Source: Methylohalomonas lacus | Lineage (GTDB): Bacteria > Pseudomonadota > Gammaproteobacteria > Methylohalomonadales > Methylohalomonadaceae | Direction of reading: 5' to 3' | Length of the DNA: 42,829 nucleotides | Assembly (NCBI RefSeq): GCF_024808875.1 | Contig: NZ_JANUCT010000022.1 | Location: forward strand, 1-42,829 | Shown here: positions 16,166 through 34,147 of the stretch, in pieces | How the letters are laid out: each line of letters begins with the position of its first letter | How positions within the stretch are numbered: position 1 is the first letter of the stretch | Notes under the pieces: model-generated | Seen by the model: only the letters and a program-made list of their open reading frames with translations | Databases searched by the model: none | What the model was told of the DNA's origin: nothing | Translations under genes and position numbers: made by a program

Positions 16166-17893
16166 GTGATTAACCCTACCAGCTGTCGTTTCCTGGTTTT
16201 GCTTGCCGCCAGCGCTTTGTTGTCGGCCGGCTGCGCCGAAATCGAACCCAAGCCATACTCGCGCTCGGAAGGCCATATTGAAGCGAGCGATCCCGATGCC
16301 GCTCCGAAGGCCGAGATTCCGGAGGTGACCACGCAGTCACCGGTACTGCCGGAACCCACGCCGGCCGCTGCCCTGGAAAAATACACCGTCGTCGTCAATG
16401 AGGTGCCAGTCAAGGAGTTGCTGTTTGCGCTGGCGCGGGATGCCGATCTGAATGTCGATCTGTATCCGGGCATTGATGGCCTGGTGACGCTGAATGCGGT
16501 CGACCAGACGTTGCCGCAGATCCTTGATCGCATCAGCCGTCAGGTTGACATACGTTACGAATTCGAAGACAACAACATCATCGTTTCGCCGGACACACCT
16601 TTTTTCAAAAGCTATACCGTCGACTACGTCAACATGTCGCGCAATACCACGGCCGGTAACCAGCTGGCCACACAAATCAATACAACTGGAGGCGATACTG
16701 TAGGTGGCGGTGGCGGTAGCGGCGGCGGTAGTCGCGGCGGTGGCAATAATTCGACCACTGATGTACAGAGTACATCCAACAATCTGTTCTGGCAGCGTCT
16801 GGTCAGCAATGTCGCAGCGATTATCGATGATCCGATCGGCCAGCAGCGCGGTAGCGATGGCGACATACCCAGCAGCGCGAATATAGTGGCCACACCCGAG
16901 GCCGGCACAATCAACGTTCGAGCAACCTCAAAACAGCATGAATATATAGAAGAACATGTAAGTAACGTCGTAGAAAGCGCGCAACGACAAGTTCTGATTC
17001 AAGCAACGATTGTAGAGGTGGAGCTAAACGATCAATACGAGGCGGGCGTTAACTGGCAAGCGTTAGATATAGCTGAAAGCTCTCTCAGTATCGCTTCGAA
17101 TACAATTTTTAATCCTATAAGGGCTGGTGCAGCTAATATAGGCAACTCAGTAACTGGCGGAGATAGCACATCATCCGTGCTCGCACTGGAATATGATGGC
17201 AATGATTTTTCATCGCTTATCAATTTGCTTGAAGAGTTTGGTAACACAAATGTTTTATCAAGCCCGCAACTGATGGTGCTCAATAATCAGACCGCTGTTC
17301 TCAAGGCAGTTGAGAATTTTGTTTATTTCGAAATAGAAGCAGACACTACGTCGACTCAGACCAATGCAATAACAACTGTGGATTCTGAAGTCAGGACGGT
17401 GCCTATAGGTGTCGTTATGGCTGTAACACCACAAATATCTAATTCTGGTGTGGTTACACTTAATGTGCGTCCTACTGTTTCGGATCAGGCGCGTGATGCT
17501 GTCGCTGATCCCGCAATTGGTTTGATTAGGGCCCAAATTAGTCAGAGTAACGGCGGGGCAGCATCAGACATTCAAATTCCAGACAATCTTGTTCCAGTTA
17601 TACGCGTTCGTGAGATGGAATCCATGTTGCGGTTGAATAGTGGGCAAACAGCAGTTCTCGGTGGATTAATGCAAAACCGTGATGTGGAAAGCGAAAATGC
17701 TATCCCCGGCCTTTCCAAGATCCCATTGTTTGGTCGCGCTTTTCAAAGTAAGAGAAGAAGCCTTAGAAAAAGCGAACTCGTGATCTTCCTCCGACCAGTT
17801 ATAGTCAATAATCCCAATCTTGATCAGGATCTAGAGAATTATAGACAGTTCCTGGATCAGGGTTTTGATAAGGGAAGCGCGGAGAGGGACTAA
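16166..17893 (+). CDS. mshL: MSHA-type pilus secretin MshL
   Basis: 575 residues, GTG start with a good ribosome-binding site. An outer-membrane lipoprotein secretin forming the pilus exit pore. The signal peptide ends in lipobox LLSAGC, with C23 lipidated. An N-domain with the secretin/TonB short fold lies at about 65-155, a glycine/serine-rich linker at about 178-195, and the secretin domain at about 265-565 (QVLIQATIVEVELND, VTLNVRPTVS, LRKSELVIFLRPVI). The first 250 codons are about 60% GC. From base 16921 the gene drops to about 38-47% GC until its end, while mshN returns to about 62%. The shift falls at the start of the secretin domain. Confidence 0.95.
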   Translation: MINPTSCRFLVLLAASALLSAGCAEIEPKPYSRSEGHIEASDPDAAPKAEIPEVTTQSPVLPEPTPAAALEKYTVVVNEVPVKELLFALARDADLNVDLYPGIDGLVTLNAVDQTLPQILDRISRQVDIRYEFEDNNIIVSPDTPFFKSYTVDYVNMSRNTTAGNQLATQINTTGGDTVGGGGGSGGGSRGGGNNSTTDVQSTSNNLFWQRLVSNVAAIIDDPIGQQRGSDGDIPSSANIVATPEAGTINVRATSKQHEYIEEHVSNVVESAQRQVLIQATIVEVELNDQYEAGVNWQALDIAESSLSIASNTIFNPIRAGAANIGNSVTGGDSTSSVLALEYDGNDFSSLINLLEEFGNTNVLSSPQLMVLNNQTAVLKAVENFVYFEIEADTTSTQTNAITTVDSEVRTVPIGVVMAVTPQISNSGVVTLNVRPTVSDQARDAVADPAIGLIRAQISQSNGGAASDIQIPDNLVPVIRVREMESMLRLNSGQTAVLGGLMQNRDVESENAIPGLSKIPLFGRAFQSKRRSLRKSELVIFLRPVIVNNPNLDQDLENYRQFLDQGFDKGSAERD

Positions 17894-17896
17894 GAA

Positions 17897-19654
17897 GTGA
17901 GTCTGCTCATGGATGCCCTGCGCAAGGCCGAGCAGGAGAAAAAGGCAGCTGCCAAACGCTTGCGCGAACAGCAGGAGACGCAGGAGCATCAGCAGACCGG
18001 CAGCGCCGATTCATCGTTGCAACTTGAAGACATCGGTGCCGAAGATAAAACAGATACTCCCGAAGCCGATACAACGGACAGCAATGATTCGCCACAGTAC
18101 AGCACCTGGCAAGCGCCCAGGACAGAACTTGAGCTGACAGCGCTGGAACGTGCTCAGCCGCTGTCCGCGGCCACGACGACCGAAACTGAAAGCCATCCAG
18201 ACACAACACCCGTTGCCGGTGATGAGACATTGATCGAACTCAATCGGGACGATGTATCGGCGGAGCTGGATCTGGATGTGACGGGACAGGAGTCAGCACC
18301 GGTATCGGCCTTCGCGCATAGTGATGCCGAGTTGTCCCTGGAACCGGACGATAACACGCAGGCTGATGAGCCGGGGAACGAGGCTTTCATAAATACGAAT
18401 GAGCATCTGCGCACAGATTCTGGAATAGAAGGGACAGACAGAAAGGAAGATAATGAAGAAAACGAAGAAGTAACCTATACCGACACATTGCGTGAGGAAC
18501 GTGGTCCAGCCAAAAAGCGTGCCGGCTCTGACTCGCTGAGTTACGAGCAGCTTGATAGCCCGGCTGCGGCACGGCAGGTGTTTGCCGCAAGGCGAACTGC
18601 TTCATCAGCGACGCTGACCATAATCGTACTGGTCTTGCTGATCGTTATCGGCCTGACCGCATCCGGTATCTTCTACTACTACAGTGTCACGCCCATGGTG
18701 CGCGATATCGCTTCACCGCGAGTGGCGGGAGAAATGGAAAGCCGCCAGCGTCCTGCCATGGAACTGATAACCCCGACTGAAGCACCATCGCAGGTAGCAG
18801 CGCTGCCTGAGAGTGGCAGCGCGACGGCGACGACCGAGAGTGTGCCGGAACGTTCCGCAACGGACAGTGAGGATGAGGAAACTGTTACTGAACAAGCTGC
18901 GCTCGACAACACGCCAGAACAGAACGTTACAGCCACAGAACCGCCCGCAGCTGAATCCACGCAGGCAGATGATAGTCGCCTTGCGTCAGCGGCTGAAACA
19001 GCTGAAGCGCCGATCGAGGAGCTTGAGCTGAGCCCTGCATTGCTGAAGATCAGCCGCTCAGAGGGCAGTACGGACGTAAGCCAGACCGTGAATGAGGCCT
19101 ATGCCGCCTACCGGCGTGGTGACCTGGAACAGGCGCAGACGCTCTATCGGCGTGTACTGCGTGACAACCCGGAAGAACGCAATGCCTTGCTGGGCCTCGG
19201 TGCGATCGCGGTACAGCAGGGCCGCTTCGATGCGGCCTATCGCTATTACGCTGATATTCTGCGGCAGAATCCAGCAGACCGTGCTGCCGGTACTGCACTT
19301 ATTTCCATGCAACAGCAAAGTGATCCGGCCAGCAGTGAGGCACGTATAAAGCGCATGCTTGCCGATGAGCCGAATGCCGGTTACCTGCATCAGGCGCTGG
19401 GGAATGTCTATGCGCAGAATCAGCGCTGGCCACAGGCGCAGCAAGCCTATTTCGATGCGTATAGTAATGACAGCGACAACGCGGACTATGCCTATAATCT
19501 GGCGGTCAGTCTTGATCACCTGGGCCAGGCCGACACCGCGCTTGAATACTATGTTCGCGCGCTGGAGCTGGCTACTGACCAGCCGATCAGCTTTACCCGT
19601 CAGTCAGCGCAGGCGCGCATCAATCAAATCAGACAGGCCGGTGATATAAAGTGA
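17897..19654 (+). CDS. mshN: MshN-like TPR protein of the pilus machine
   Basis: 585 residues from a GTG 3 bases after mshL. The opening MSLLMDALRKAEQEKK is conserved in MSHA-type and PEP-CTERM-linked membrane TPR proteins. An acidic, low-complexity cytoplasmic part runs to about 235, a single membrane helix spans about 240-262, a second acidic Ser/Thr/Glu-rich stretch runs to about 375, and a periplasmic TPR domain (about 385-580) contains repeats such as AYRRGDLEQAQTLYRRVL. MshN is thought to link inner-membrane parts to the secretin. It overlaps mshE by 4 bases. Confidence 0.88.
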   Translation: MSLLMDALRKAEQEKKAAAKRLREQQETQEHQQTGSADSSLQLEDIGAEDKTDTPEADTTDSNDSPQYSTWQAPRTELELTALERAQPLSAATTTETESHPDTTPVAGDETLIELNRDDVSAELDLDVTGQESAPVSAFAHSDAELSLEPDDNTQADEPGNEAFINTNEHLRTDSGIEGTDRKEDNEENEEVTYTDTLREERGPAKKRAGSDSLSYEQLDSPAAARQVFAARRTASSATLTIIVLVLLIVIGLTASGIFYYYSVTPMVRDIASPRVAGEMESRQRPAMELITPTEAPSQVAALPESGSATATTESVPERSATDSEDEETVTEQAALDNTPEQNVTATEPPAAESTQADDSRLASAAETAEAPIEELELSPALLKISRSEGSTDVSQTVNEAYAAYRRGDLEQAQTLYRRVLRDNPEERNALLGLGAIAVQQGRFDAAYRYYADILRQNPADRAAGTALISMQQQSDPASSEARIKRMLADEPNAGYLHQALGNVYAQNQRWPQAQQAYFDAYSNDSDNADYAYNLAVSLDHLGQADTALEYYVRALELATDQPISFTRQSAQARINQIRQAGDIK

Positions 19655-21369
19655 CCGCAGGGCCACACAAAAGACCCATGCGCATCGGCGAGATTCTGGT
19701 CCAGAAAGGCGTTACAACGCCGGACCAGGTCAATATCGCCCTGACCGAGCAGAAAAAGAGCAAAGAGCATCTGGGCAAGATACTGGTCAAGCTCGGCTTC
19801 GCCACGGAAGCAATCATCCGCGATGTTCTGGGCGGTGTACTTGGCCAGGAAAGTGTGGACCTATCACATGCCATCATCGATGCCGATGCTGTCAGGCTGA
19901 TTCACCAGGATATTGCCCGGCGTTACCGTGTGTTACCGCTGACCTACGACACCAAGAATGAGCGTCTGACCATTGCCATGGCCGATACATTTGACCTCGT
20001 GGCAATGGACCAGATTGTCGCAGAGGTTGGTGACAGTGTTGAGATCGTTCCCCTGCTTACCGGCGAAGGTGAAATTGAGACCGCCATAGATCGGGCTTAC
20101 GGTTTTGAGCTGTCCGTGGACGGTATTCTGAATGAAATCGAAACCGGCGAGATTGACTACCAGAGCCTGGATGCCGAATCGGACGAGTATAGCCAGCCGG
20201 TGGTCAGACTGGTCAATGCACTGTTGTCCGATGCGGTCAAACGTGATGCCTCGGACATACACTTTGAGCCGGAAGAAGGCTTTCTGCGCTTTCGTTACCG
20301 CATCGATGGTGTATTGCGACAGATTCGCAGCCTGCACAAGAACTACTGGTCGGCACTGGCAGTCAGGCTGAAGGTGATGGCCGGCATGGACATCGCCGAG
20401 ACGCGGGCACCGCAGGACGGCCGTATTTCACTGACGCTGTCCGGCCGTACCGTCGATTTTCGTGTTTCCACGCTACCCACCGTGCATGGTGAGAATATCG
20501 TCCTACGCGTGCTCGATCGCTCACGTGGCATCGTGTCAATGGAAGAGCTGGGCCTGCAGCCGGAGGCCATGGATCTGCTCAAACTGATGGTGGCTCGCCC
20601 CGAGGGCATCATCATGGTGACGGGACCCACCGGCAGCGGCAAGACGACCACACTTTATTCGCTGCTGAATTATCTCAACACGGAATCCGTTAACATCATG
20701 ACCCTGGAGGATCCGGTCGAATACCCGACCTCAATGATTCGCCAGACATCGGTCAATGAATCAATCCGCCTGGATTTTGCCAGTGGTATCCGTTCCATGA
20801 TGCGCCAGGATCCGGACATCATTCTGGTCGGCGAGATTCGCGACGAGGATACCGCCAATATGGCGTTTCGCGCGGCCATGACCGGCCATCAGGTGTTCTC
20901 GACACTGCATACCAACTCCGCCATCGGCGCGATTCCGCGGCTGCTGGATATCGGTATTCTGCCGGACATCCTGTCGGGCAATATCATCGGTATCCTGGCA
21001 CAGCGACTCATTCGACGTCTGTGCGTGAACTGCAAGGAACCCTACGAGATGTCGGAGCTTGAACGCGGCCTGCTGGGCCTGAAGATCAGTGAACGGGAGC
21101 AACCGCTGTACCGGGCAACTGGCTGCAGTAAATGTGAGAACACCGGTTATCGTGGACGTATAGCGCTGATGGAACTGCTGCATTTTGACGCGGACATCGA
21201 CGAGTTGATAGCGCGTCGCGCGACACCAAAGGAAATCCGCAAACTCGCGGTCGCCAAGGGCTTCAGGACACTGGCAGAAGTCGGGGCGGCCCGGGTCATG
21301 GAAGGCGTAACGAGTATCGACGAGGTCAGTCGCGTCGTAGATTTGACCAGCCGGTTGAAGCAGGGCTGA
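19651..21369 (+). CDS. mshE: pilus extension ATPase MshE with MshEN (c-di-GMP) domain
   Basis: 572 residues. A cytoplasmic GspE/PilB-type hexameric ATPase that drives pilin assembly. The N-terminal MshEN domain carries RIGEILVQKG (residues 11-20) then Q26 and LTEQ, and a second LGKILVKLGF block (41-50), fitting the tandem c-di-GMP-binding motif of MshE. The ATPase core has Walker A GPTGSGKT at 325-332, Walker B DPDIILVGEIRDED at 387-400 and the His box STLHT. Zinc-site cysteines are C458, C461, C492 and C495. The GTG start overlaps the mshN stop; M10 is an alternative start. Confidence 0.95.
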   Translation: MTAGPHKRPMRIGEILVQKGVTTPDQVNIALTEQKKSKEHLGKILVKLGFATEAIIRDVLGGVLGQESVDLSHAIIDADAVRLIHQDIARRYRVLPLTYDTKNERLTIAMADTFDLVAMDQIVAEVGDSVEIVPLLTGEGEIETAIDRAYGFELSVDGILNEIETGEIDYQSLDAESDEYSQPVVRLVNALLSDAVKRDASDIHFEPEEGFLRFRYRIDGVLRQIRSLHKNYWSALAVRLKVMAGMDIAETRAPQDGRISLTLSGRTVDFRVSTLPTVHGENIVLRVLDRSRGIVSMEELGLQPEAMDLLKLMVARPEGIIMVTGPTGSGKTTTLYSLLNYLNTESVNIMTLEDPVEYPTSMIRQTSVNESIRLDFASGIRSMMRQDPDIILVGEIRDEDTANMAFRAAMTGHQVFSTLHTNSAIGAIPRLLDIGILPDILSGNIIGILAQRLIRRLCVNCKEPYEMSELERGLLGLKISEREQPLYRATGCSKCENTGYRGRIALMELLHFDADIDELIARRATPKEIRKLAVAKGFRTLAEVGAARVMEGVTSIDEVSRVVDLTSRLKQG

Positions 21370-21382
21370 GCGGATATCTTTC

Positions 21383-22588
21383 ATGGCTACCTTCCAATAT
21401 AAAGCAATGGATGGCCAGGGCCGTTTTCATAACGGTCGTATGGAGGCAGTCAATAGTGCCGATCTGGAAGGCCGCCTCGGCAAGATGGGCCTGGACCTGG
21501 TTAATTTTCGCGACATCAGCAAGCAGGCGCGCCGGCGTGCCGGCTATGGCGTCAAGCGTCGCGACCTGATCGTGTTTTGTTTCCATATGGAACAGACCGC
21601 CCGTTCCGGCGTGCCCATGCTCGAGAGTCTTCAGGACCTGCGTGACAGCGTGGACAACCCCCGCTTCAGAGAAGTTATTTCGTCGATGATGGAATCCATC
21701 GAGGGCGGCAAGACATTATCCCAGGCCATGCAGGATTTTCCCGCAGTCTTTTCCTCTGTATTTGCAAACCTGGTCAAGGCCGGCGAGCAAAGCGGCGAAA
21801 TGAGTGAGGTGTTCCGTAGCTTGTCAGAAAACTTGAAATGGCAGGATGAACAGGCTTCCTATGTAAAAAAACTTCTAATGTACCCGGCCTTTGTCGCCAC
21901 GGTTGTTATATCGGTGGTGTTTTTCCTGATGAGTTACCTGGTCCCGGAACTGCTCAGGTTTATCCAGACCATGGGCCAGGAGTTACCGATGCATACCAGG
22001 GTGCTTATTGCCGTTTCCGGTGTGTTCAGCCAGTACTGGTATATCATTCTGGGTCTACCGATTATCGCCGCGATCGCAATCGGTTTTGCCGTGCAGAGCA
22101 ATCCCAGGGCGCGATATCAATACGATCGTATAAAATTGAAACTCCCCATCATAGGGCCGATTTATGAAAAAATAATTCTGACCCGCTTGATCAATTTCTT
22201 CGCCATGATGTATTCGGCCGGAATCAGCATCATAGATTGTTTGCGCACCAGCGAAGCGATAGCCGGCAACAAGGTGCTTGAAGAGACTATGCATACAGTC
22301 GGCCAGTCCATTGCAGATGGCCATAGTCTCAGTGAAAGCTTCGCCATGACAAATACCTTCCCACCACTCGTTCTTAGGATGATTCGGGTTGGTGAGAATA
22401 CCGGTGCACTGGAAAGCTCTCTGCTTAATGTCAGCTATTTCTATACACGTGATGTGCGTGAATCGATTGAAAAACTACAGTCTATGGTAGAACCCGGCAT
22501 GACAATCGTGCTTGGTTCCATTATCGCCTGGGTGATGTTCTCCGTGCTTGGTCCAATTTATGATCTCATCACTAAAGTCCAGATTTGA
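21383..22588 (+). CDS. mshG: pilus inner-membrane platform protein MshG
   Basis: 401 residues, the standard length of the GspF/PilC family. Two cytoplasmic T2SSF helical bundles are separated by membrane segments at about 171-190, 218-237 and 372-396. Motifs typical of the family include ARSGVPMLESLQDL, FANLVKAGEQSGEM and RMIRVGENTGALE. It forms the rotor-like platform driven by MshE. It lies 13 bases after mshE and overlaps the next gene. Confidence 0.95.
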   Translation: MATFQYKAMDGQGRFHNGRMEAVNSADLEGRLGKMGLDLVNFRDISKQARRRAGYGVKRRDLIVFCFHMEQTARSGVPMLESLQDLRDSVDNPRFREVISSMMESIEGGKTLSQAMQDFPAVFSSVFANLVKAGEQSGEMSEVFRSLSENLKWQDEQASYVKKLLMYPAFVATVVISVVFFLMSYLVPELLRFIQTMGQELPMHTRVLIAVSGVFSQYWYIILGLPIIAAIAIGFAVQSNPRARYQYDRIKLKLPIIGPIYEKIILTRLINFFAMMYSAGISIIDCLRTSEAIAGNKVLEETMHTVGQSIADGHSLSESFAMTNTFPPLVLRMIRVGENTGALESSLLNVSYFYTRDVRESIEKLQSMVEPGMTIVLGSIIAWVMFSVLGPIYDLITKVQI

Positions 22589-24146
22589 CCTGCTCCAGCG
22601 TCGGGCGCTATTTATCACGGCGGGACGTGCGCGTGTGTATCACTGGAATGGCGGTTCCCTGGACGGTATCTATACCTTCGATACATCCGAGCAGGGACTG
22701 AGCCTTTTTGAAGAGTATTTGAATGAGAACGCTGCTGATCCTGTCTATTTGCTGACTGATGTCGCCGAGGAAGAATTCCGCCTGGACTCCATCCCCCATG
22801 TCATGGGGGGTGACAGGAAGGCACTGCTGAACAGAAAGAAGGCAAAGCTGTTTCGAAATATCAGATATAGCTATTGCGAGGTTCAGGGACGTGAGACGGA
22901 AGGCCGGCGCGATGATCGGGTCGTGTTTTCCGCGCTGACTGACGATGAATTCCTACGCCCGTGGCTCAGACGTCTCGAGGCCAGAAAGGTGCCCGTTGCC
23001 GGTATCTATTCAGTTGCCCTGCTGTCAAAACAGCTTCTGAAATCACTCGGCTATGGTGCCGGGCCGGCCTTGATCGTATCTCTACAGCGTAATGCGGGAC
23101 TGCGTGAGTCGTTTTTCCAGAATGGTGACTTCAAATTCAGCCGACTCGTGCGCCTGCCGCGCTATGGCACCGAGTCCTATGCACCGGTCATAGCCGATGA
23201 AATGGAAAAGATGCTGCGCTACCTTCGCAGCATGCGCCAGATTAACCATGATTCACTGGTCCAGGTCTATCTGCTGGCGGACGAGAAGTTGCATGCTGAG
23301 CTTGAGCCGGCCTGCAGAGACAAGGTTGGCGTCAGCTATAATCAGATCACGCTACGGGATATTGCCGGAAAACTTGGCCTGAAAGCAGATTTTGTCGATC
23401 CCTTTTCTGAATCGGTATTTGTATATCTTCTACTGAAAAACCGCAGTGGCAATATATACGCCGGTGAGCAGGAAACACGCTACTTTACGCTGAGGCGTCT
23501 GCGACATTGCCTGCTCGGCTCAAGCCTTTTTCTCTTGCTGGGCAGTTTCATCTGGAGTGGTCTGGCGTTTATAGAAGGGGTGACACTGAAGCAGGAGACC
23601 GTCAGTGCCCGGGCCAAGACAGAATTTTATGGTGAGCGATATGATATGGCGCGCGAGCGACTGCCGAATATTCCGGTGGAGCCGGAAGACCTGAAAACGG
23701 CGGTTCAGGTTGTTGAAGGCATGGCAGATTACAAGGCTTCGCCCTTGCCATTGATGCGGACACTAAGTCGCAGTATGGATGAGTTTCCCGATATCCAGAT
23801 TGATGCCATAAAATGGCTGGCGAGCATGGATCCGAATGCCGATCCGGCTGGCAATGCGAGCCGAGAAGCGTCTGCATTAAGCGCGAACAGTGACTATATT
23901 TATTACCAGGTGGCACGGGTAAGCGGCTCCCTGGCGCCTTTTGATGGTAGCTATCGACGTGCCATTGAACTGGTTAACCGGCTGGCTGAGGATATCCGTA
24001 CGCAACCTGGTGTTTACGATGTCAAGATACTGACTCTACCGCTGGATGTCAGCCCCGAGGCAAGGTTGCAGGGGACAGGAGATATGGTCCGCGGGGAAGC
24101 CGGGTTTTCACTAAAAATCGTCCAGGGAATCACCGATGAAACGTGA
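22560..24146 (+). CDS. bitopic pilus assembly protein, GspL/PilM-PilN-like
   Basis: 528 residues from the ATG at 22560 (a TTG at 22548 is a longer option), overlapping the mshG end by 29 bases. A large cytoplasmic part (1-316) has the size and position of the actin-like PilM/GspL fold. A single membrane helix lies at about 317-340, followed by a periplasmic part with PilN-like character. In MSHA loci this role is filled by MshI (PilM-like) and partners; here both halves appear as one chain, as in GspL. Sequence similarity alone is weak, so the call rests mainly on layout and neighbours. Confidence 0.7.
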   Translation: MISSLKSRFDLLQRRALFITAGRARVYHWNGGSLDGIYTFDTSEQGLSLFEEYLNENAADPVYLLTDVAEEEFRLDSIPHVMGGDRKALLNRKKAKLFRNIRYSYCEVQGRETEGRRDDRVVFSALTDDEFLRPWLRRLEARKVPVAGIYSVALLSKQLLKSLGYGAGPALIVSLQRNAGLRESFFQNGDFKFSRLVRLPRYGTESYAPVIADEMEKMLRYLRSMRQINHDSLVQVYLLADEKLHAELEPACRDKVGVSYNQITLRDIAGKLGLKADFVDPFSESVFVYLLLKNRSGNIYAGEQETRYFTLRRLRHCLLGSSLFLLLGSFIWSGLAFIEGVTLKQETVSARAKTEFYGERYDMARERLPNIPVEPEDLKTAVQVVEGMADYKASPLPLMRTLSRSMDEFPDIQIDAIKWLASMDPNADPAGNASREASALSANSDYIYYQVARVSGSLAPFDGSYRRAIELVNRLAEDIRTQPGVYDVKILTLPLDVSPEARLQGTGDMVRGEAGFSLKIVQGITDET

Positions 24147-24756
24147 AAATATAGACTGGTCCGTTCTGCGTGGTGCCTTGACGATTTTTCTTATTGTGCT
24201 TGCGCTATCAGTCGCCATTGGCATATCAGCCTACTCTTTCAATCTTGCGATGGAACGCGAGTATCGCAGTGCCCAGGCCGAATTTAGCCGGATAACTGAT
24301 CGCTATCTCAAGGTTGACGAACAGGAAATCCTTATACGGGATTACTATCCCCGCTTTGTCGATCTTTACCAGCAGGGTGTAGTTGGCGGAGAGCGAAGGC
24401 TGGACTGGCTCGAATCCCTTCAGCAGGTCACAGACAACCTGAAAATACCCGGGCTACGTTATGAAATCGAATCACAGCAGCAAAGCCGAAACCAATGGCC
24501 AATCAATACAGGCAAGTTTCAAATCTACAGCAGTAATATGAAAATAAGCCTCGAAATGCCTCACGAAGTCGATTTGCTGCGTCTATTCGACAGGTTGGAA
24601 CAGAGAAAAGCGGGTTTTTTCTCGGCATCTGACTGCGAGCTGAGCCGGCGCTCGCCTGAGATCGACCTGTCACCAACAACAACCAATGTGAGTGCCAGCT
24701 GTAATATAATGTGGTATAGCCTGAAATTGAGTAATGGCGAAGAGATAAAAATCTGA
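24136..24756 (+). CDS. bitopic pilus assembly protein, GspM/PilO/MshJ-like
   Basis: 206 residues. A short cytoplasmic N-terminus, a membrane helix at about 12-33 (TIFLIVLALSVAIGISAYSF), a helical, probably coiled-coil stretch to about 100, then a small periplasmic domain. This is the plan of PilO, GspM and MshJ, which pair with the PilN/GspL-like partner. It overlaps the previous gene by 11 bases, and its TGA overlaps the next ATG, so translation is probably coupled across all three. Confidence 0.7.
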   Translation: MKRENIDWSVLRGALTIFLIVLALSVAIGISAYSFNLAMEREYRSAQAEFSRITDRYLKVDEQEILIRDYYPRFVDLYQQGVVGGERRLDWLESLQQVTDNLKIPGLRYEIESQQQSRNQWPINTGKFQIYSSNMKISLEMPHEVDLLRLFDRLEQRKAGFFSASDCELSRRSPEIDLSPTTTNVSASCNIMWYSLKLSNGEEIKI

Positions 24757-25226
24757 TGTCGACGCGTCTGATCTATTGCCCGCTCATGATTCTGCTATTA
24801 ACGCTGGCAGGAACATTGCAAGCCCGTGAAGATGACTATTTCGGCCGTCTGTTCACATCTCCGGAGCAACGGGACAGGATTGATACTATCCGTTATGCGA
24901 CAGAACCGGAGCCTGAAGAGATAGCCGTCATAGAGCCAGAACCTGAGCCAGAACAGCAGGAAATCCCGCCCAATATCAGTCTGCGGGGGATGATCCGTGG
25001 CGGCGACGGCGAACCCGTCTACTGGATCAACGACTCTAACAGCATGCAGGCGGATTTCATGCAGGACAGCATAACGGTCCTGCCCGGCAATGAGGGCAGC
25101 CGCGAGATCCTGATCCGTCTGCCCGATGACCGGATCATCCCCCTGCAGGTAGGCGAGAGCTATATCCCAGATTCAGAGAAAACTCCACAGACGGAATTGC
25201 AGCGCGTGGAAACACGCAACCGTTAG
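24756..25226 (+). CDS. periplasmic pilus protein, MshK/PilP-like
   Basis: 156 residues. A signal peptide (MILLLTLAGTLQA, cleavage around residue 23-24), then an acidic proline/glutamate-rich stretch (EPEPEPEQQEI), then a compact beta-rich segment PNISLRGMIRGGDGEPVYW and following bases that resembles the C-terminal domain of MshK/PilP/GspC-type proteins, which touch the secretin. TGATG overlap with the previous gene supports an operon. The family call is by position and outline rather than a strong motif. Confidence 0.65.
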   Translation: MSTRLIYCPLMILLLTLAGTLQAREDDYFGRLFTSPEQRDRIDTIRYATEPEPEEIAVIEPEPEPEQQEIPPNISLRGMIRGGDGEPVYWINDSNSMQADFMQDSITVLPGNEGSREILIRLPDDRIIPLQVGESYIPDSEKTPQTELQRVETRNR

Positions 25227-25228
25227 CC

Positions 25229-27067
25229 ATGTGCCGAGGAACTGCCGCCCGTCAGAGAGGTGCCGCATTACTGGCACTGATACTCCTGATTGTCGCCGGT
25301 TCGGCCTGGATGCTGCTTGAGAATCTCAATGCCACCGCTATCCAGAACCAGCGAGATGAACATGATGCCCGTGTCCTCGCTGAAGCCAAGGACGCACTGA
25401 TAGCGTACGCTCTAACGCACAGTGATATTAATTCAGCTGGCGAATTCGGCTTTTTGCCGTGTCCGGATACAGGTGTTGATGCATTGGATGAGGGAATATC
25501 ACACTGGCATTGTGGTATGGGGGATGAAAAGTACAAAAATGTATTAGGTAAGCTACCATGGAAAAGTCTGGGTACGCAGACTCTCAGGGATTCCTCAGGA
25601 GAATGCCTTTGGTACTTAGTTTCTGGACAATATAAAAATGGCGCAAAACAGGGAGATCTACTTAATTCAGATACGAATGGAAGCTTCGAAATCTATTCCA
25701 GCAGTGATGGAGATCTAATTGTCGGTGCGGGCCCGGACGATAAATACGAAAATAGACCAGTCGCGGTCATTATTGCACCAGGTGAACCAGTAGGCGAACA
25801 GAACCGCACCGAAACGGATCCGGACGACACGCCAGAGTGCGGAGGGAATTACGATCCGGAAAATTATCTGGACGATTGGAGCTTCGGTAGTGATCCTGGG
25901 GATGTCGAGAATTTTTCAGTTGCTGCCGAGGATGATATCGACATCCTTGTTTCTGGTGGCAAGTCGAATAAAGAAATAATCAATGACAAGTTGGTAATAA
26001 TAACCAAGGGAGATATCTGGCAAGCTGTAAACAAACGGAAAGATATTGATTATCAGGACCATCCTGATGCCGCTGAATTCAAGCGTCTAACAGCCTGGGT
26101 GTCGGGCTGTTTAGCAGAATACGCAGAAGAGACCGGCAGCGATCCGGCAAATAATAGTCTTCCATATCCAGCCGCGCCCAATCTAATCAACGATATTGAT
26201 ATAAGAGATTATCGCGATAATGCTTTATATCGTTCAATCGATCCCGCTGCTTTGGATGATTACTATGTAGATTCCTATTCGAATGCACCACTCTTCGGCC
26301 GTTTACCATATGATATAAAAAACAGCTCTGATATCAAGCAGATGTCGATGTCTGATAATAGTTATATAGGAAATTGTGATTTAAGTGATTCCGACCTGGT
26401 AGAAGATGAGGTAAAGGAAGGTAATGAAAAGTACAGAAAAATGTGGCAGAACTGGAAAGATCATTTCTTCTATATGGTAGCTGATCTGTATTCACCGAAA
26501 AGCACATGGGAAAGAGTCCCTGACCCTGACAATGCGATGACCGATTTCTGTGATTCGCTGCCCAGAGCTGACTGGCCTTTATGGTGGAACGATTTTCTAG
26601 AGGGTTATTGTGACTATTATTTTGATAATAATCCATCGGCAACGATTCCGCGCACATGTGGATCGGAGAATTGCATAAGTGTTGATGATAATTCAGGACC
26701 CTATTTTGCTGCTGTAATTGTTTTCTCGGGCAAACCCCACAAATACGGTAGCTGTAATATTGATCCGGATGGTGTTGGTCTGTATGTAGCACAGCGAAGA
26801 TACAATATCAGTTATGATTTGGAAAAATCGGAAAGCAACGATGACAGAAGACGTGTATGCAATTATCTCGAAGTCCCTAATCTACCGATTCTGGTCAATT
26901 GGCAGAACGAACGTATAACCTATTTAGATACAATCGGAGATGATTCAATTGTTCTGCAGACTCCAGCTGTCCTATACGATGAGGAACATAATGATATTTT
27001 TTATTGTCTGCATGCATCTCCGGAGCCCGGTGTTACAAGAATAACAGACATAACCGAGTGTTTCTGA
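25229..27067 (+). CDS. very large pilin-like protein (GspK/PilX type), possible pilus-tip component
   Basis: 612 residues, far longer than ordinary pilins. The N-terminus has a prepilin-type site, RQRG followed by AALLALILLIVAGSAW. It lacks the glutamate at mature position 5, as in GspK and PilX, which start or cap the fibre. The next part (about 45-140: AKDALIAYAL, FLPCPD, LPWKSLGTQTLRDSSGECLW) is a domain I recall from proteobacterial pilin-like proteins. The remaining 450 residues are acidic, rich in D, N, Y and paired cysteines, and unlike anything I recognise. Base composition falls from about 57% to about 33-48% GC after residue 68. It starts 2 bases after the previous gene. Confidence 0.75.
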   Translation: MCRGTAARQRGAALLALILLIVAGSAWMLLENLNATAIQNQRDEHDARVLAEAKDALIAYALTHSDINSAGEFGFLPCPDTGVDALDEGISHWHCGMGDEKYKNVLGKLPWKSLGTQTLRDSSGECLWYLVSGQYKNGAKQGDLLNSDTNGSFEIYSSSDGDLIVGAGPDDKYENRPVAVIIAPGEPVGEQNRTETDPDDTPECGGNYDPENYLDDWSFGSDPGDVENFSVAAEDDIDILVSGGKSNKEIINDKLVIITKGDIWQAVNKRKDIDYQDHPDAAEFKRLTAWVSGCLAEYAEETGSDPANNSLPYPAAPNLINDIDIRDYRDNALYRSIDPAALDDYYVDSYSNAPLFGRLPYDIKNSSDIKQMSMSDNSYIGNCDLSDSDLVEDEVKEGNEKYRKMWQNWKDHFFYMVADLYSPKSTWERVPDPDNAMTDFCDSLPRADWPLWWNDFLEGYCDYYFDNNPSATIPRTCGSENCISVDDNSGPYFAAVIVFSGKPHKYGSCNIDPDGVGLYVAQRRYNISYDLEKSESNDDRRRVCNYLEVPNLPILVNWQNERITYLDTIGDDSIVLQTPAVLYDEEHNDIFYCLHASPEPGVTRITDITECF

Positions 27068-27098
27068 TTGGCTAAGAAAAATGTACGGACTTAAGGTT

Positions 27099-27758
27099 AT
27101 GAGTAATAAGGGATTTACCTTGGTAGAACTTGCCATGGTTCTGCTGATTATCGGCCTTTTGCTAGGTGGTTTATTGATGCCGTTAGCCACTCAGGTAGAG
27201 CAGCGCGATCGGAGGCTGGTGGGAGAACAGCTAGAGGATATTAAACGGGCTCTGCTGGGATATGCTGTAATAAATGGCAATTTCCCCTGTCCATCTATTG
27301 TGACGGATCCCGATGATGATGATTATGGGCTTCCTGTTGACCCCAGTGAAGATGAATGTGCTGACGACGGGTTGTTGCCATGGAAGGTGCTTGGCGTGCG
27401 AGAGAAGGATCCCTGGGGTAGTTATTGGCGATATAGGGTAGATACTAATTTCGTTGACACATTCAATCTGGGTACTGTACCTGGGGATGGCTTGGGAGTA
27501 TTCAGGGTTATTGATGGAGATGAAAAGCGACTGACTGCGGCGAATGATGAGTTCAGACCAGTTGTCGTATTTTATTCACAGGGTCCTGATATGGAATCGA
27601 ATGGCCTTAATACACATGGATCCGATCCAGATCATGCCAAATTTCAGGGAGGAGAACCTGTCCAGGGACAGTTTGATGATTTAACAGACTGGCTAACACG
27701 GCCAATTTTGCTTGAGGTTATGCTGTCATCACGCGTACTACCATCGACGGGCATCTAA
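27099..27758 (+). CDS. type IV pilin-like protein with prepilin leader
   Basis: 219 residues from the ATG at 27099 (an ATG at 27081 would add six). A short leader MSNKG is cut before the methylated F of FTLVELAMVLLIIGLLLGG, with E5 present, so this is a true pilin-type signal. The globular part holds ALLGYAVINGNFPCPS, LLPWKVLGVREKDPWG and acidic loops, the same domain type as the preceding large pilin. It is probably a minor pilin of the same fibre. The gene is AT-richer than the assembly genes. It ends 3 bases from the end of the convergent kinase gene. Confidence 0.85.
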   Translation: MSNKGFTLVELAMVLLIIGLLLGGLLMPLATQVEQRDRRLVGEQLEDIKRALLGYAVINGNFPCPSIVTDPDDDDYGLPVDPSEDECADDGLLPWKVLGVREKDPWGSYWRYRVDTNFVDTFNLGTVPGDGLGVFRVIDGDEKRLTAANDEFRPVVVFYSQGPDMESNGLNTHGSDPDHAKFQGGEPVQGQFDDLTDWLTRPILLEVMLSSRVLPSTGI

Positions 27759-27761: not shown

Positions 27762-29441
27762 CTATATACCTCGGGATAATTGAAACTCCACCCTGCCTTT
27801 CTCGTTGTATGTAAGTGACAATTCATAGCCAAGGCCTTTGGCCAGTTCAGCAACCTGCAGCAGGCCAACACCCAATCCGCTGGCCGAGTTCAGTGGCTGT
27901 TTAAATAGTCGCAAGGCTATATCATCAGGTATCGGTGCTCCATTGTCCCTGACAGACAGTCTGGTGGTCTTGCTGTCGATGCGCAACTCTGCGGTTATTA
28001 GGGTGTCAGGATCAGAATCTGATTTCTGCTTGGCATTATCGATCAGGTTTTCCATCGCACTGTCGAATAGTTCACGCGGCAATGGTTTATCAAGATCCAT
28101 ATGAGCTGTGAATGCTATCGGATGATGGCCATATTTTATCTGCGCCTCTTTCCACCATTCGGTCGCGTTGATATAAGTGATTGTGTCCGTATTGGTATTC
28201 TGGAGTTTATCAAGCGCTGATTCCAGACGATGCGTTAAAACGGGCAGCTGCTTTTTCAGCAAGTCCTGGGTGGCATCGGATTTTCTAGCACCCTCATCGG
28301 TTATCAAAGAAGTTATATTGTGAAATGATTGCAGTATGTTCTTGATATCATGGGTAAGGCGGGCCCCTGTTTCATAAATGGCTTGCATGTGCGCCTGACG
28401 GGCCAGTTCGCGCTCCTGCAATTTGGCCGTGTAGAAATGATCGATAATCTGGACCAGGAGCCTGAAATGCAGTGATAGTGTGGCACCTATATTGCGGCTG
28501 GTCATGATTGTTACATGCAGATGCTCTGAATCAATTCTCACCGGGTTTCTGGTCTCTATGCCATAGCGGCCTTCCAGATCGTCCGTATGCCAGCTTACAC
28601 CGTCTATCATCGGTAGTGTCAGAAGCTTGCTTGTTGCCTGTTCGAGAAATGATTCGGGCGTATAGGTCTCGCCCTTGAGCGTTGCTATATCGCGAATCCA
28701 GCGCTCGAAGGGGGTGCCTATATTTAATAGTGACTGAGTCCATAGCTCGGCCAGGCCGCTGAAACCGGTGCGGGGTGATAACAGCCAACTGATCAGCAGG
28801 ATTAATACACCAATGAACAGGAAGGTTTTAACCAGTGCCGTGCCATAGTCCTGGTCGGTTATGGGGTGGCTATTAATGATACTGCCGAGAAGCAATAAAC
28901 TGGCAAGCAATGCTGTTGTTATGGCACCGAACAGATCGACCTGTAGACCGGTCTTTTTGTCAGGACGCGCATCGCCGGGCATTAGCAATATCAACAGTGG
29001 CAAGAAGAACAGGCCACTGTTGATTAGAGAAATGAACAGGGGATCAAGTCTTATTGGAAACAGCTGTGAAGCACCGCTGATCAGTAATTCGATAAATAGA
29101 AAGAACAGGATTACCAGGTTGATGTTGCGCTCCTGGTTGGTCTGCGGCAGTCTGCCCCCTGTCAGGCCGATCAGCAGTATCAGCCAGCCGCTGAGAAGCC
29201 ACCAGTCGAGCCAGACGAGGAAGCCGCCCATCAGAACGATAAACAACAGGATGTTCTGCCAGTTCAGTCGCTGACTGCCGCGCCAGATGGGCTGCCATAT
29301 CAGGAACAGGCCGACGTGAGCCAGAATCAGCGAACGCGCTATGGGCGAATCGAGTCCGGTCGCGATAGCCGCATGTAGCGTCAACAACAGCAGAGTGCTG
29401 ACCAGACGCTGGCTGAAATTCTGCGTTAGAATAGTCTTCAA
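27762..29441 (-). CDS. membrane sensor histidine kinase (PrsK/PilS-like)
   Basis: 559 residues. The N-terminal half has about seven or eight membrane helices (residues 14-222). A soluble, possibly GAF-like domain follows (about 245-335). The kinase part has the phospho-accepting H364 in ARLTHDIKNILQSF, the N box ENLIDNAKQK (464-473), G1 DNGAPI and G2 GLGVGL (522-527). There is no receiver domain. The best start is a TTG at 29439-29441 with no good ribosome-binding site, so the N-terminus is uncertain. It is divergent from the permease gene, 42 bases away. The only regulator in the window lacking a kinase is at 13402. Confidence 0.9.
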   Translation of the reverse strand: MKTILTQNFSQRLVSTLLLLTLHAAIATGLDSPIARSLILAHVGLFLIWQPIWRGSQRLNWQNILLFIVLMGGFLVWLDWWLLSGWLILLIGLTGGRLPQTNQERNINLVILFFLFIELLISGASQLFPIRLDPLFISLINSGLFFLPLLILLMPGDARPDKKTGLQVDLFGAITTALLASLLLLGSIINSHPITDQDYGTALVKTFLFIGVLILLISWLLSPRTGFSGLAELWTQSLLNIGTPFERWIRDIATLKGETYTPESFLEQATSKLLTLPMIDGVSWHTDDLEGRYGIETRNPVRIDSEHLHVTIMTSRNIGATLSLHFRLLVQIIDHFYTAKLQERELARQAHMQAIYETGARLTHDIKNILQSFHNITSLITDEGARKSDATQDLLKKQLPVLTHRLESALDKLQNTNTDTITYINATEWWKEAQIKYGHHPIAFTAHMDLDKPLPRELFDSAMENLIDNAKQKSDSDPDTLITAELRIDSKTTRLSVRDNGAPIPDDIALRLFKQPLNSASGLGVGLLQVAELAKGLGYELSLTYNEKGRVEFQLSRGI

Positions 29442-29483: not shown

Positions 29484-30260
29484 ATGGACACATTACTCAG
29501 AATTGTAGTCATTGCGCAACAGGGGCTGAAGGAGGCCTGGTACAGTCGTTTCTATAGCCTGCTGTGCCTGGTCATTGTCCTGTGTGCAGGTCTGGGCCTG
29601 TTTGCTGGCGAACTGGTCCTGTCTGGTGCCGACGGTACCCGCCTGAGTGTCTATAACTTCATCCTGCGACTGGCCCTGGTTGGCGTGTTTGCCATTCATG
29701 TTATACAGAGTCTGCTACGCGACCGTATAGACAAGCAGACCGAGGTAATGCTGTCGCTGGATATGCCGCGTGAGATTTACGTGCTCGGTCGCCTGCTGGG
29801 TTTTCTGGCGGTATCGTTGATTGCTGTCCTCGTCGCCATCCTGTATCCGCTATGGTTCAGCAGTCCGCTCACGGTGGCTGGTTGGGGCCTGAGCCTGTAC
29901 ACGGAACTGGCGATGATCATCTGCCTGGCAGGCTTCGTTACAATCAGCCTCAATAATGCCGCAGCCTGCTTCAGCCTGGTCGCCGGCCTGTATTTTCTGG
30001 CTCGCAACATGGGCAATCTGCTGCTGCTGAGTCAAAGCCCCATCCTGGAAGGTCGCGATTCCGGACTGGACTGGATGACCGCTGTTTTGCAGGCGATCAA
30101 CACGGTTCTGCCCGATCTGTGGCGCTTTGCCCCGTCGGAATGGCTTATCAACAATACAGCGGACTTGTCGGCAGTGGGCATGAACATGCTGACAGCGGCT
30201 ATTTTCTGCCTGTTGCTGTTTGCAGCCACGGGCTTCGATTTGCATCGCAAGAACCTTTGA
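29484..30260 (+). CDS. ABC-2-type membrane permease
   Basis: 258 residues with about six hydrophobic helices in the layout of NosY/CcmB-like ABC-2 permeases. The loop after helix 2 (SLLRDRIDKQTEVMLSLDMP) resembles the cytoplasmic coupling region of such exporters. No ATP-binding domain is present, and none is adjacent. An ATPase of the matching type lies 3.2 kb downstream at 33416-34147. Its stop overlaps the start of the next gene (TGATG). Substrate unknown. Confidence 0.75.
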   Translation: MDTLLRIVVIAQQGLKEAWYSRFYSLLCLVIVLCAGLGLFAGELVLSGADGTRLSVYNFILRLALVGVFAIHVIQSLLRDRIDKQTEVMLSLDMPREIYVLGRLLGFLAVSLIAVLVAILYPLWFSSPLTVAGWGLSLYTELAMIICLAGFVTISLNNAAACFSLVAGLYFLARNMGNLLLLSQSPILEGRDSGLDWMTAVLQAINTVLPDLWRFAPSEWLINNTADLSAVGMNMLTAAIFCLLLFAATGFDLHRKNL

Positions 30261-30985
30261 TGGTGCTGCTCCGCCGCCACTCCCCGTATCGTCAACGGCC
30301 GCTGACGGCGGTGCCGGGCTACCTGGTTGGGCTATTGTTACTGCTGCTGTTGCTGCAGGTTGGAACAGGCCTCTACCGGCAGCCTCCCGAGGCCCGCGTT
30401 GAGGCATTGCCGGCAGTACCGGCAATGTCCTATCTCCAGGTATTGAGTTTTGGCGATCCGGCGTTTCTTTCGCGCCTGCTCGTACTCTGGTTGCAGACCC
30501 ATGACTATCAGCAGGGTGTCAGTCTTTCCTACCGGGAGATTGATTACACGCGGCTGGCCGGGTGGCTGGCGGCAAGCCTGAAGCTGGATCCGGGCCACGA
30601 CTATCCCCTGCTTCTGGCCAGCCGGGTATACGCCATGGTGGACGATGCCGATCGTCAGCGGGTCATGCTGGGTTTTGTCGCCGAGCGGTTCAGGGAGCGG
30701 CCGGTTGACCGCTGGCGCTGGCTGGCCCATGCGGTTTATGTCGCCAAGCACCGGCTGAAGGACGAACCGCTTGCACTTGAGTACGCCCGCCTGCTGGCTG
30801 ATGAAACACGACCGGGTGAAATAGCGGGTTGGGCGCGCCAGATGCAGATATTCATACTGGCGGACATGGGCGAGGTCGAAGCGGCCAAGGTGCTGTTGGG
30901 CGGCTTGCTGGAAAGCGGGGAAATGACGGATTCGGGCGAATACCGCTATCTGCTACAGCGTCTGGAGGACCAGGCGCAGGAGTAG
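30260..30985 (+). CDS. bitopic membrane protein with helical repeat domain
   Basis: 241 residues from the ATG at 30260, which overlaps the permease stop. An N-terminal membrane helix (about 19-33, including LVGLLLLLLLLQVG) is followed by an extracytoplasmic helical domain with TPR/SEL1-like spacing (YPLLLASRVYAMVDDADRQR, PLALEYARLLADE). I do not recognise a named family. The open frame reaches back to 30119 inside the permease gene, but the coupled ATG is far more likely. It probably acts with the permease. Confidence 0.7.
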   Translation: MVLLRRHSPYRQRPLTAVPGYLVGLLLLLLLLQVGTGLYRQPPEARVEALPAVPAMSYLQVLSFGDPAFLSRLLVLWLQTHDYQQGVSLSYREIDYTRLAGWLAASLKLDPGHDYPLLLASRVYAMVDDADRQRVMLGFVAERFRERPVDRWRWLAHAVYVAKHRLKDEPLALEYARLLADETRPGEIAGWARQMQIFILADMGEVEAAKVLLGGLLESGEMTDSGEYRYLLQRLEDQAQE

Positions 30986-31034: not shown

Positions 31035-32249
31035 TCAGTCGAAGAGCCTGTCAATCCGCTCGATCATTCCCCGGTAATACTCGTCATCCGGCTTCAATTT
31101 GAGCAGCTCGCTGAACTGTTCGTGGGCCTGCAGGTAATGGCCTTTAATGTAGAGTTCAATCGCCCTGTCATGCATACCCAGCCAGGCGTCGTCACCATTG
31201 GCGGTAGATGCGCCCTTGAACAGTGGCTGATAAATATTCGCCGGCTTTTGCTTGCCACGCAGGACAAGGCGGTCAAGCTGGCGAAAGGTATAATCCGGAC
31301 TCGATTGCACGACATGAGCGCTGGTAATAATGGGCACCCGGTATTCACGCGTGAGGCGCTCGAGGCGCGAGGCAACGTTGACCGCATCACCAATGACCGT
31401 GTAACTGGCCCGCTTGGACGAACCGATATTACCCACGTTCATGTCACCGCGATTGATACCGATGCACAGATCCAGTGTGGGCCAGTCCCGTTCGGCGAAA
31501 TCCCGGCTCAATTCGGCGACAGCTTCCTGCATGGCAAATGCGGCATCGAGTGCCTTGCTGCTCTGGTCATGCTGTACAAGCGGTGCGCCCCAGAACGCCA
31601 TGACCGAGTCGCCGATGTATTTGTCTATCGTGGCGTCATGATCCAGCAGGATGCTGCTCATGACATCAAAATGGCGATTGAGCAGCCGGGTGAGCTCCAT
31701 AGGCTCCAGTTGCTCGGCGACACGGGTGAAGTTGACCAGGTCCGCAAACAGCACTGTCAGCTCACGCGACTCACCCTCGAGGGAAAAACTGTCCGGTTCG
31801 CGACACAGCTGGCGCACAACCTCGACCGGCACATAGTGACTGAAGGTGTCGATAATCTGCTGGCGCTGGTGTGAGTAGGCGTAGTAACTGATCAGGACAT
31901 TGATCACGAACAGTATCAGAATGATGAGCAGGTAATACTCCATCGGTAGGACACCGGGCTGCAAAACACCAGTGTAGCTGAGATAAACTGGCGGCACGGT
32001 ACAGCCCAGCGTCAGCAGCGAGGCGGGTAATGGCTCAAGTTGCGGCAGAGAGAAACTGAGCAGCAGGCCGATGGTGGCAAGCAGTAGAAAGTCCACTGTC
32101 AGTACGAGACCGCCCAGGACCGGCCAGGCGGCACTGAAGGCGGGTAACGACGCGGTGCCCGGCTCGATACGGAACACGCCCGCCGCATGACCGAGAAACA
32201 GCAGACAGACGAACAACACAAATGCAATCCTTGGCAACAGGCGGTTCAT
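31035..32249 (-). CDS. class III adenylate cyclase, membrane-bound
   Basis: 404 residues. About four membrane segments (8-25, 44-66, 76-93, 105-122), a linker, then a cyclase domain (about 163-345). Metal-binding aspartates are D170 (LFADLVNFT) and D214 (YIGDSVMAFWG). The base-selecting pair K210 and D288 (TVIGDAVNVASRLE) points to ATP rather than GTP, and the transition-state residues N291 and R295 are present. It should make cAMP at the inner membrane. Many relatives carry a CHASE2 sensor between membrane segments; here that region is only about 20 residues, so the sensor is missing or very small. It is encoded opposite to its neighbours. Confidence 0.92.
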   Translation of the reverse strand: MNRLLPRIAFVLFVCLLFLGHAAGVFRIEPGTASLPAFSAAWPVLGGLVLTVDFLLLATIGLLLSFSLPQLEPLPASLLTLGCTVPPVYLSYTGVLQPGVLPMEYYLLIILILFVINVLISYYAYSHQRQQIIDTFSHYVPVEVVRQLCREPDSFSLEGESRELTVLFADLVNFTRVAEQLEPMELTRLLNRHFDVMSSILLDHDATIDKYIGDSVMAFWGAPLVQHDQSSKALDAAFAMQEAVAELSRDFAERDWPTLDLCIGINRGDMNVGNIGSSKRASYTVIGDAVNVASRLERLTREYRVPIITSAHVVQSSPDYTFRQLDRLVLRGKQKPANIYQPLFKGASTANGDDAWLGMHDRAIELYIKGHYLQAHEQFSELLKLKPDDEYYRGMIERIDRLFD

Positions 32250-32507
32250 CGGAAATGGTCCTGTAGGCGCAGAAAGCCACCATGCCTAAGGACGGTGCTT
32301 TCAGTGCGGAAATATGGTTGATGCCCCCGAAGTCAATTATAGTGCCACCACAACCGACACGCGAATGTTATTGATTTCATTGGGTATGATGAAAATCTGT
32401 CGCCAGCGTCGAGTTTTCGTCAGTTGCTGTCGGAATACGGTCATTTCGGCCGTTGATCCGTCCGGGGCGCTGAAAGATATAGCCATGAAAACAATGAGTT
32501 AAAAACA
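32250..32507. other. upstream region of the pilin gene, no gene seen
   Basis: The cyclase ATG and the pilin ATG are divergent and 321 bases apart. The region holds no supported reading frame. It contains CTGTC at 32397-32401 and again at 32427-32431 (30 bases apart, about three helical turns) and GACAC, the inverse of GTGTC, at 32356-32360. These resemble the (C/G)TGTC boxes described for PilR upstream of pilA in Pseudomonas and lie about 105-175 bases before the expected start of transcription. Confidence 0.35.
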
Positions 32508-32523
32508 TGGCACAGCTTTTGTA
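32508..32523 (+). promoter_or_regulatory. strong candidate sigma-54 promoter for the pilin gene
   Basis: TGGCAC-AGCTT-TTGTA matches the sigma-54 consensus TGGCAC-N5-TTGCA at every position except T for C in the -12 element, with exact spacing. The expected start is near 32534, giving a leader of about 37 bases that contains CAGGA ahead of the pilin ATG. Confidence 0.8.
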
Positions 32524-32570
32524 TGATAACTTATCAGCCACAATTTCAAGCAGGATGTCAGGAAGCAACC

Positions 32571-33278
32571 ATGAATAAAGCAAAGCAATCCGGTTTTACG
32601 CTCGTAGAAATTGCCATCGTCCTGGTCATTATCGGACTGTTGCTCGGCGGTATCCTCAAGGGCCAGGAGCTTATCAACAGCGCCCGCGTGCGTAACATGG
32701 CCGACCAGAATTCGGCGATTCAGGCTGCTTACTTTGGTTTTATTGACAGGTATCGCCAAGTACCTGGTGATATGTGTAACCAGGATGCTGTTGATGCGAT
32801 TGGTCAGGATATTAACACTACCGATACCGCGACGTGTGGCAATGGCCGGCTTGATAGTGGCGTATTAGAGGAAGCAGCGGGGGTCTGGGAGCATCTCTCG
32901 AAGGCAGGATTCATGACAGGTAATTATCAGGGACTTGATGGAGGAAACTATCAGTCACCTACGGCAGCTCCGGTTAATGCTTTTAATGGCTATGTGTTAC
33001 TTGGCCGGATAGAGAATGCTGCTTATCAAGGCGATGGTAGTGAGCGTCTGGGCTACGTATTTGGTCAGCAAACACCGGTGAATATAATGCGGGAGTTGGA
33101 TGTAAAACTGGATGATGGCCGTCCCGCAACAGGTGTCTTACGCATGACATTAAGCGATGGCAATTATTCGCCTATGACAGACAGTGATGATGCTAACTGT
33201 ATAGATACAGATGCGGATCCTGATATTTGGGATATCAATACGAACTCTCAGGATTGCAATGGTGTATACCTCTATTAG
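32571..33278 (+). CDS. type IV pilin (MshA/PulG-like), candidate major subunit
   Basis: 235 residues. The leader MNKAKQSG is cut before FTLVEIAIVLVIIGLLLGGIL, with E5 present. The mature protein continues with ELINSARVRNMADQNSAIQ and YRQVPGDM, a pattern seen in MSHA/PulG-type subunits, then a Gly/Asn/Asp-rich domain with cysteines near the C-terminus (ANCIDTDAD, DCNGVYLY). The frame is open back to 32523, but AGGA about 7 bases before the ATG at 32571 fixes the start. It has its own sigma-54 promoter candidate and a strong terminator, as expected for an abundant subunit produced separately from the assembly genes. Confidence 0.88.
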   Translation: MNKAKQSGFTLVEIAIVLVIIGLLLGGILKGQELINSARVRNMADQNSAIQAAYFGFIDRYRQVPGDMCNQDAVDAIGQDINTTDTATCGNGRLDSGVLEEAAGVWEHLSKAGFMTGNYQGLDGGNYQSPTAAPVNAFNGYVLLGRIENAAYQGDGSERLGYVFGQQTPVNIMRELDVKLDDGRPATGVLRMTLSDGNYSPMTDSDDANCIDTDADPDIWDINTNSQDCNGVYLY

Positions 33279-33342
33279 ATTTATTGAGTGGTGACAACAA
33301 GAAGGAGCTTTCTCCTCTTAAACTGGCAACTCCAGTTGTTCA

Positions 33343-33371
33343 GGCCCGCTAAAAGCGGGCCTTTCTTTTTT
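33343..33371 (+). terminator. rho-independent terminator after the pilin gene
   Basis: GGCCCGCT-AAA-AGCGGGCC (33343-33361) followed by TTTCTTTTTT. A smaller AGGAG/CTCCT hairpin lies just upstream at about 33303-33316. Confidence 0.93.
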
Positions 33372-33415: not shown

Positions 33416-34147
33416 ATGTCCGCAAAACCGCTTGTCATTCGTGATTTATACAAGGCCTATCGCGTTGGCCAACCCGTTCTCGATGGTCTCTCGCTCACTG
33501 TCGATAGTGGCGACGCGCTGGCGCTGGTGGGTATCAACGGCGCCGGCAAGACGACACTGATCAAGTCGATACTCGACTTCGTCAGCATCGACTGCGGCAA
33601 TATCGAAATCTTTTCCGAATCCCACGCGCGGCACCAGGCCCGGGCCCGCATTGCCTTCCTGCCGGAGCGCTTCCAGCCGCCCTACTACCTGACCGGCGAA
33701 GGTTTCCTGCGCATGATGGCGCGGCTTTACCGGGCGTCCTATAGCGAGAGCGGGATCGCCGCGACCATGCAGGCCCTGGATCTACCCGCCAGTGCGCTGT
33801 CGCAGCCAGTGCGCGAGTATTCCAAGGGCATGGCGCAGAAGCTGGGACTGATCGCCTGCCTGCACAGCCAGCGCTCGCTGTTGATCATGGATGAGCCGAT
33901 GAGCGGTCTCGATCCTAAAGCCCGGCACGCTTTCAAGCAGCTGCTGCGGGAACTGCCTGGAGAGGGTCGGACACTGTTCTTCAGTACTCATCTGCTCGCC
34001 GACGTCGAGGCCGTCTGCAATAAAATGGCGATATTGCACGATGGCCGGCTGCATTTTGTCGGTTCACCGACGGAGTGTTGCCGGCAATTCGGGACCGAGG
34101 AACTGGAAAATGCCTATATGCAATGCATTGGTGCGCAGGTTGCTTAA
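33416..34147 (+). CDS. ABC transporter ATP-binding protein (NosF/CcmA-like)
   Basis: 243 residues, one nucleotide-binding domain. Walker A is GINGAGKTT (about 38-46), the signature is reduced to EYSKGMAQKLGL in place of LSGGQ, Walker B is LLIMDEPMSGLDP, and the switch histidine is in FFSTHLLADVE. The SKGM-type signature is common in NosF and other ABC-2 export ATPases, so it should still be active. The obvious partner is the permease at 29484, now separated by a membrane protein, a cyclase and a pilin gene. Confidence 0.92.
   Translation: MSAKPLVIRDLYKAYRVGQPVLDGLSLTVDSGDALALVGINGAGKTTLIKSILDFVSIDCGNIEIFSESHARHQARARIAFLPERFQPPYYLTGEGFLRMMARLYRASYSESGIAATMQALDLPASALSQPVREYSKGMAQKLGLIACLHSQRSLLIMDEPMSGLDPKARHAFKQLLRELPGEGRTLFFSTHLLADVEAVCNKMAILHDGRLHFVGSPTECCRQFGTEELENAYMQCIGAQVA

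Follow-up and report, generated by a model that had tools for sequence, protein, structure and literature searches.

The window, that is, the whole analysed stretch of 42,829 nucleotides from Methylohalomonas lacus, carries a type IV prepilin gene and a set of pilus assembly genes within a gene order that recurs across gammaproteobacteria and partly in betaproteobacteria: regulator, GspA-like ATPase, mshL-N-E-G-I-J-K, minor pilins, kinase (on the opposite strand), ABC permease, orf, often a cyclase, pilin and ABC ATPase (Table 1). The original prediction had called the pilin stand-alone, which is right for its transcription unit but not for its setting, since the order ABC permease, orf, (cyclase), pilin, ABC ATPase is conserved. 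As a label, "MSHA-type" seems to suit the assembly genes (MshL, MshE with a c-di-GMP motif, MshG, and the order of I, J, K and N; the MshL model gave 231 bits versus a cut-off of 250), but the pilin itself is not closely related to MshA. Its sole domain match was N_methyl, the PF00114 domain being absent from it; the predicted structure (pLDDT 88) has a C-terminal domain preceded by the long N-terminal helix, the fold search indicated type IVb pilins as the nearest, weakly similar structures (TM about 0.4), and the match of the pilin profile to a solved MshA chain (E 0.009) was confined to the N-terminal helix. The window pilin is presumably the main, abundant subunit.

Several other features of these loci can be mentioned. 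The MshE homologue (19651–21369) bears an N-terminal c-di-GMP-binding motif, scoring above the cut-off of NF053729; assembly may be under c-di-GMP and pilin supply under sigma-54. The orf at 30263–30985 encodes a 240-aa protein that matches neither Pfam nor NCBIfam; dozens of genomes retain it between the ABC permease and the pilin at about 31–59% identity. About half of the close relatives have the cyclase, which the others lack. Tandem pilin genes occur at L051, L054, L025, L026 and L107; several gammaproteobacteria have two copies and Burkholderiales have four to five, with a sigma-54 element before some copies only. Two contigs with an MSHA-like pilin cluster, L055 and L056, are titled as a Klebsiella pneumoniae MAG, probably a mis-binned or mislabelled genome.

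Table 1. Features of the pilin locus; positions refer to the window.
Feature	Position	Strand	Remarks
NtrC-type response regulator, GAFTGA loop	13402..14862	+	proposed activator of the pilin promoter
GspA/MshM-like AAA ATPase	14865..16106	+	first assembly gene after the regulator
MSHA-type assembly genes mshL, N, E, G, I, J, K, in order	16166..25226	+	I, J, K named by order and length
GspK/minor-pilin-like gene and second prepilin	25229..27758	+	
Membrane histidine kinase, HDIKN motif	27762..29441	-	proposed partner of the response regulator
ABC-2 permease and conserved orf without family match	29484..30985	+	
Class III adenylate/guanylate cyclase	31035..32249	-	divergent from the pilin
Candidate upstream activator site 1, CGTCGAGTTTTCGTCA	32407..32422	+	two departures from TGTYG-N6-CRACA; family position -101 from the -24 element
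Candidate upstream activator site 2, TGTCGGAATACGGTCA	32428..32443	+	two departures; 21 bp after site 1; family position -80
Overlapping sigma-70-like match TTAAAA-17-TATGAT	32499..32527	+	rival promoter; 9 of 12 matches, chance-level alone
Sigma-54 -24/-12 element TGGCAC-AGCTT-TTGTA	32508..32523	+	GT at -12 where GC is expected
Predicted leader, 37 bases	32534..32570	+	start site inferred from the -12 position
Type IV prepilin, 235 aa, N_methyl signal	32571..33278	+	invariant Cys210/Cys229
Intrinsic terminator of the pilin transcript	33342..33362	+	hairpin, then TTCTTTTTT
ABC transporter ATPase	33416..34147	+	after the pilin terminator

The pilin ATG lies 63 bases downstream of the sequence TGGCACAGCTTTTGTA, in which the predicted TGGCAC-N5-TTGTA with exact -24/-12 spacing is borne out; the 10-base distance between GG and GT is typical for such promoters, and this is the sole match without mismatches to TGGCACN5TTGYW on both strands of the 42.8 kb. 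Its score was equalled in 0.23% of dinucleotide shuffles of the 135 bases upstream of the pilin; three further sites in the window, all intragenic, come within 0.5 bit of it. Compared with TGGCAC-N5-TTGCW, the GG, the spacing and the TTG are present; the term "near-consensus" hides the GT at -12, a position where 48 of 49 element-bearing homologous promoters have C, the T of the window being the lone exception. If 32522 is taken as -12, transcription would start at 32534, leaving the 37-base leader proposed earlier. The expected ribosome-binding site (AGGA, 32560–32563, 7 bases before the ATG) and strong terminator (hairpin followed by TTCTTTTTT, -17.5 kcal/mol, z -3.35) are likewise there in the sequence.

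Pilin homologues came from 80 loci of one search and 82 genomes of the class from another, and the comparison set consisted of 105 distinct upstream regions of gamma- and betaproteobacteria; a plasmid search gave one distant match. Scanning the orthologous loci, as the original prediction had proposed, revealed a good -24/-12 element in 49 of the 105 promoters (1.7% in shuffles, 2.9% on the reverse strand). In 47 cases it lies 67 to 101 bases ahead of the processing-site codon, and in two it lies at -155. When the sequences were aligned on the element from -110 to +40, strong conservation was restricted to the -24/-12 columns; since no other column is comparably conserved, selection rather than recent shared descent accounts for the retention of the element. 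Before the other genes of the locus, including the assembly genes, it was not above background, which strongly supports the suggestion that pilin supply is switched separately from the assembly machine.

The locus also encodes a candidate pair of controllers. The regulator contains a receiver, a GAFTGA loop and a Fis-type helix, the recognition helix NRTTLYS is the same in the window and in relatives, and the GAFTGA and HDIKN motifs are conserved; together with rpoN, which is present in the genome, the two proteins would make up a complete sigma-54 switch, with binding and phosphotransfer as its predicted steps. Kinase and element occurred together at 46 loci, the kinase only at 3, the element only at 1 and neither at 37 (Fisher 7e-20, computed without correction for kinship; L136, scored as kinase-less in this table, actually has the kinase and no element nearby, and was corrected for the tree). 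Dechloromonas agitata (L078), a cultured relative, is among those that have both. By manual count, the regulator adjoins GspA in 18 of 18 kinase loci with a readable spot and in 0 of 8 kinase-less ones. On the pilin tree the kinase and the element each need 8 changes; among five well-supported independent contrasts, the element follows the kinase in 3.3 on average and opposes it in 0.1, and the tree-based sign test was not significant with so few independent switches. About five kinase-bearing loci (L136, L133, L238, L082, L056) have no element near the pilin; in L136 a good one is found 366 bases upstream, and in L133 there is one of lower quality at 295 bases, so that the leaders may be longer there. 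The co-occurrence of element with kinase, and of kinase with the GAFTGA regulator, points to the local pair as the likely controller; at the same time, the genome encodes 11 full-length sigma-54 activator domains, so another activator could bind the pilin promoter.

A dyad search upstream of the element found the motif TGTYG-N6-CRACA, derived from the same data set in which it was then counted. Its palindromic consensus, TGTYGA-N4-TCRACA, occurs in two copies, mostly 20–21 bp apart, near -100 and -80 from the -24 element; such paired sites were not part of the original prediction. Pairs 19–22 bp apart with at most 4 mismatches were present in 36 of 52 element-bearing loci versus 1 of 35 kinase-less loci (shuffle mean 0.08 of 52), and pairs at other spacings in 2–8 of the 52. 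Three loci stood outside motif discovery. In two of them, which are close to one another, both sites are perfect and separated by 32 bp; the third combines a site with one mismatch and a site with two, at a distance of 21 bp. The sites of the window are degenerate, yet both lie exactly at the family positions, which none of 3000 shuffles reproduced.

The conserved element, the paired upstream sites and rpoN strongly support sigma-54 control of the pilin, and the sequence comparisons make it likely that the pilin is transcribed alone from this promoter, driven by the local kinase and regulator through the two upstream sites. The kinase would phosphorylate the regulator, oligomers of which would bind both palindromes, situated ahead of the -24 element by about 80 and 100 bases; the GAFTGA loops would then remodel the sigma-54 polymerase at the element, transcription would begin near 32534, and the pilin, transcribed by itself, would be supplied under a switch separate from that of the assembly machine.

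To judge from its sequence, the window copy is among the weakest promoters of the family: it has a T at -12, and each of its upstream sites departs twice from the motif. Base 32522, the single departure from the sigma-54 consensus, also provides the initial T of a -10 hexamer of sigma-70-like type, a situation unique among the 52 promoters. The T may mean a weak sigma-54 promoter, a mixed promoter, one that is beginning to change class, or an error in the assembly. It is rather unlikely that the window pilin is now read mainly by sigma-70, with the sigma-54 element as a decaying relic. In favour of this reading, the C-to-T change at -12 both breaks the sigma-54 element and completes TATGAT, the 9 of 12 matches are the best among the 52 promoters at this position (next best 8 of 12) and both activator sites are degenerate; however, 2.0 such sites are expected by chance in 1.2 kb, the TTA of the supposed -35 is common to relatives that do not have the -10, and the kinase, the regulator, its recognition helix and the positions of both sites are still intact. 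That a single substitution is handing the pilin of this lineage from sigma-54 and its enhancer to sigma-70 seems improbable; if it were, the window would represent a promoter caught changing class with its dedicated kinase and regulator still present. Continued sigma-54 control of the window copy is what we consider probable.

Among pilin genes, pilA is a known case of sigma-54 control, and the original prediction implied that PilS/PilR act here as well. The genome does encode PilS and PilR, but they adjoin the classic pilA on another contig (G000:C13), where the set has its own sigma-54 promoter, TGGCACAAATACTGCT, and where PilS matches 6TM_PilS and PilA matches PF00114. The paired TGTYGA-N4-TCRACA sites are absent before this pilA, which has one two-mismatch site and no pair, and the element tracks the local kinase and regulator instead; the window kinase had HATPase_c as its sole domain match, with no 6TM_PilS domain. 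PilS/PilR were therefore rejected as the controller of the window pilin, and a real sigma-54 promoter driven by them, as in classic pilA, is very improbable; the analogy holds for the design, not for the parts. A chance resemblance with no sigma-54 control is scarcely credible, despite comparable scores inside window genes, given that dozens of diverged homologues conserve the element at a specific position and have paired upstream sites, by which the family comparison already contradicts it for the family.

A genome-wide count of the pattern gave 140 matches versus 83 in the reversed control, too noisy for a regulon list. What has been described of MSHA regulation in Vibrio concerns c-di-GMP and MshE (PMC4624772), and mshA is often a lone gene (PMC6668835). 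Searches of the open-access literature found no report of sigma-54 control of mshA or MSHA pilins and no description of a kinase/regulator/sigma-54 pilin module; sigma-54 and enhancer wiring is known for classic type IV pili, and the MSHA-like kind was not found described there. The proposed control would extend the design of a pilin on a sigma-54 switch to MSHA-like machines; in many gamma- and betaproteobacteria it allows a pilin to be assigned, by prediction, to its controlling two-component pair through a defined DNA site.

Among known systems, PrsK/PrsR of PEP-CTERM loci resemble the window in that the regulator and the GspA-like ATPase score on PEP-CTERM models, but these scores are far below the cut-offs (333 vs 502.6 and 219 vs 324.5 bits), the window kinase gave no match and an exosortase context was not seen within the window, and the PrsK/PrsR identity was rejected on the model scores. 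In Myxococcus pilGHI, too, a pilin controlled by a two-component system has ABC transporter genes on its flanks, a likeness in order only (PMC6060248). The msh locus of Vibrio cholerae shares the order mshL-N-E-G-I-J-K, the c-di-GMP motif of MshE and the GspA/MshM-like ATPase, whereas the window pilin is only weakly like MshA and lies away from the assembly operon under its own promoter. The closest parallel in design is PilS/PilR-sigma-54-pilA of Pseudomonas, Myxococcus and Geobacter, where a membrane kinase and an NtrC-type regulator also act on a sigma-54 pilin promoter apart from the assembly genes; unlike in that system, the kinase of the window does not carry 6TM_PilS nor its pilin PF00114, the regulator adjoins GspA-mshL and assembly relies on genes of MSHA type. 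With a true PilSR-pilA set located elsewhere in this genome, the locus would be a second, separate pilin wiring.
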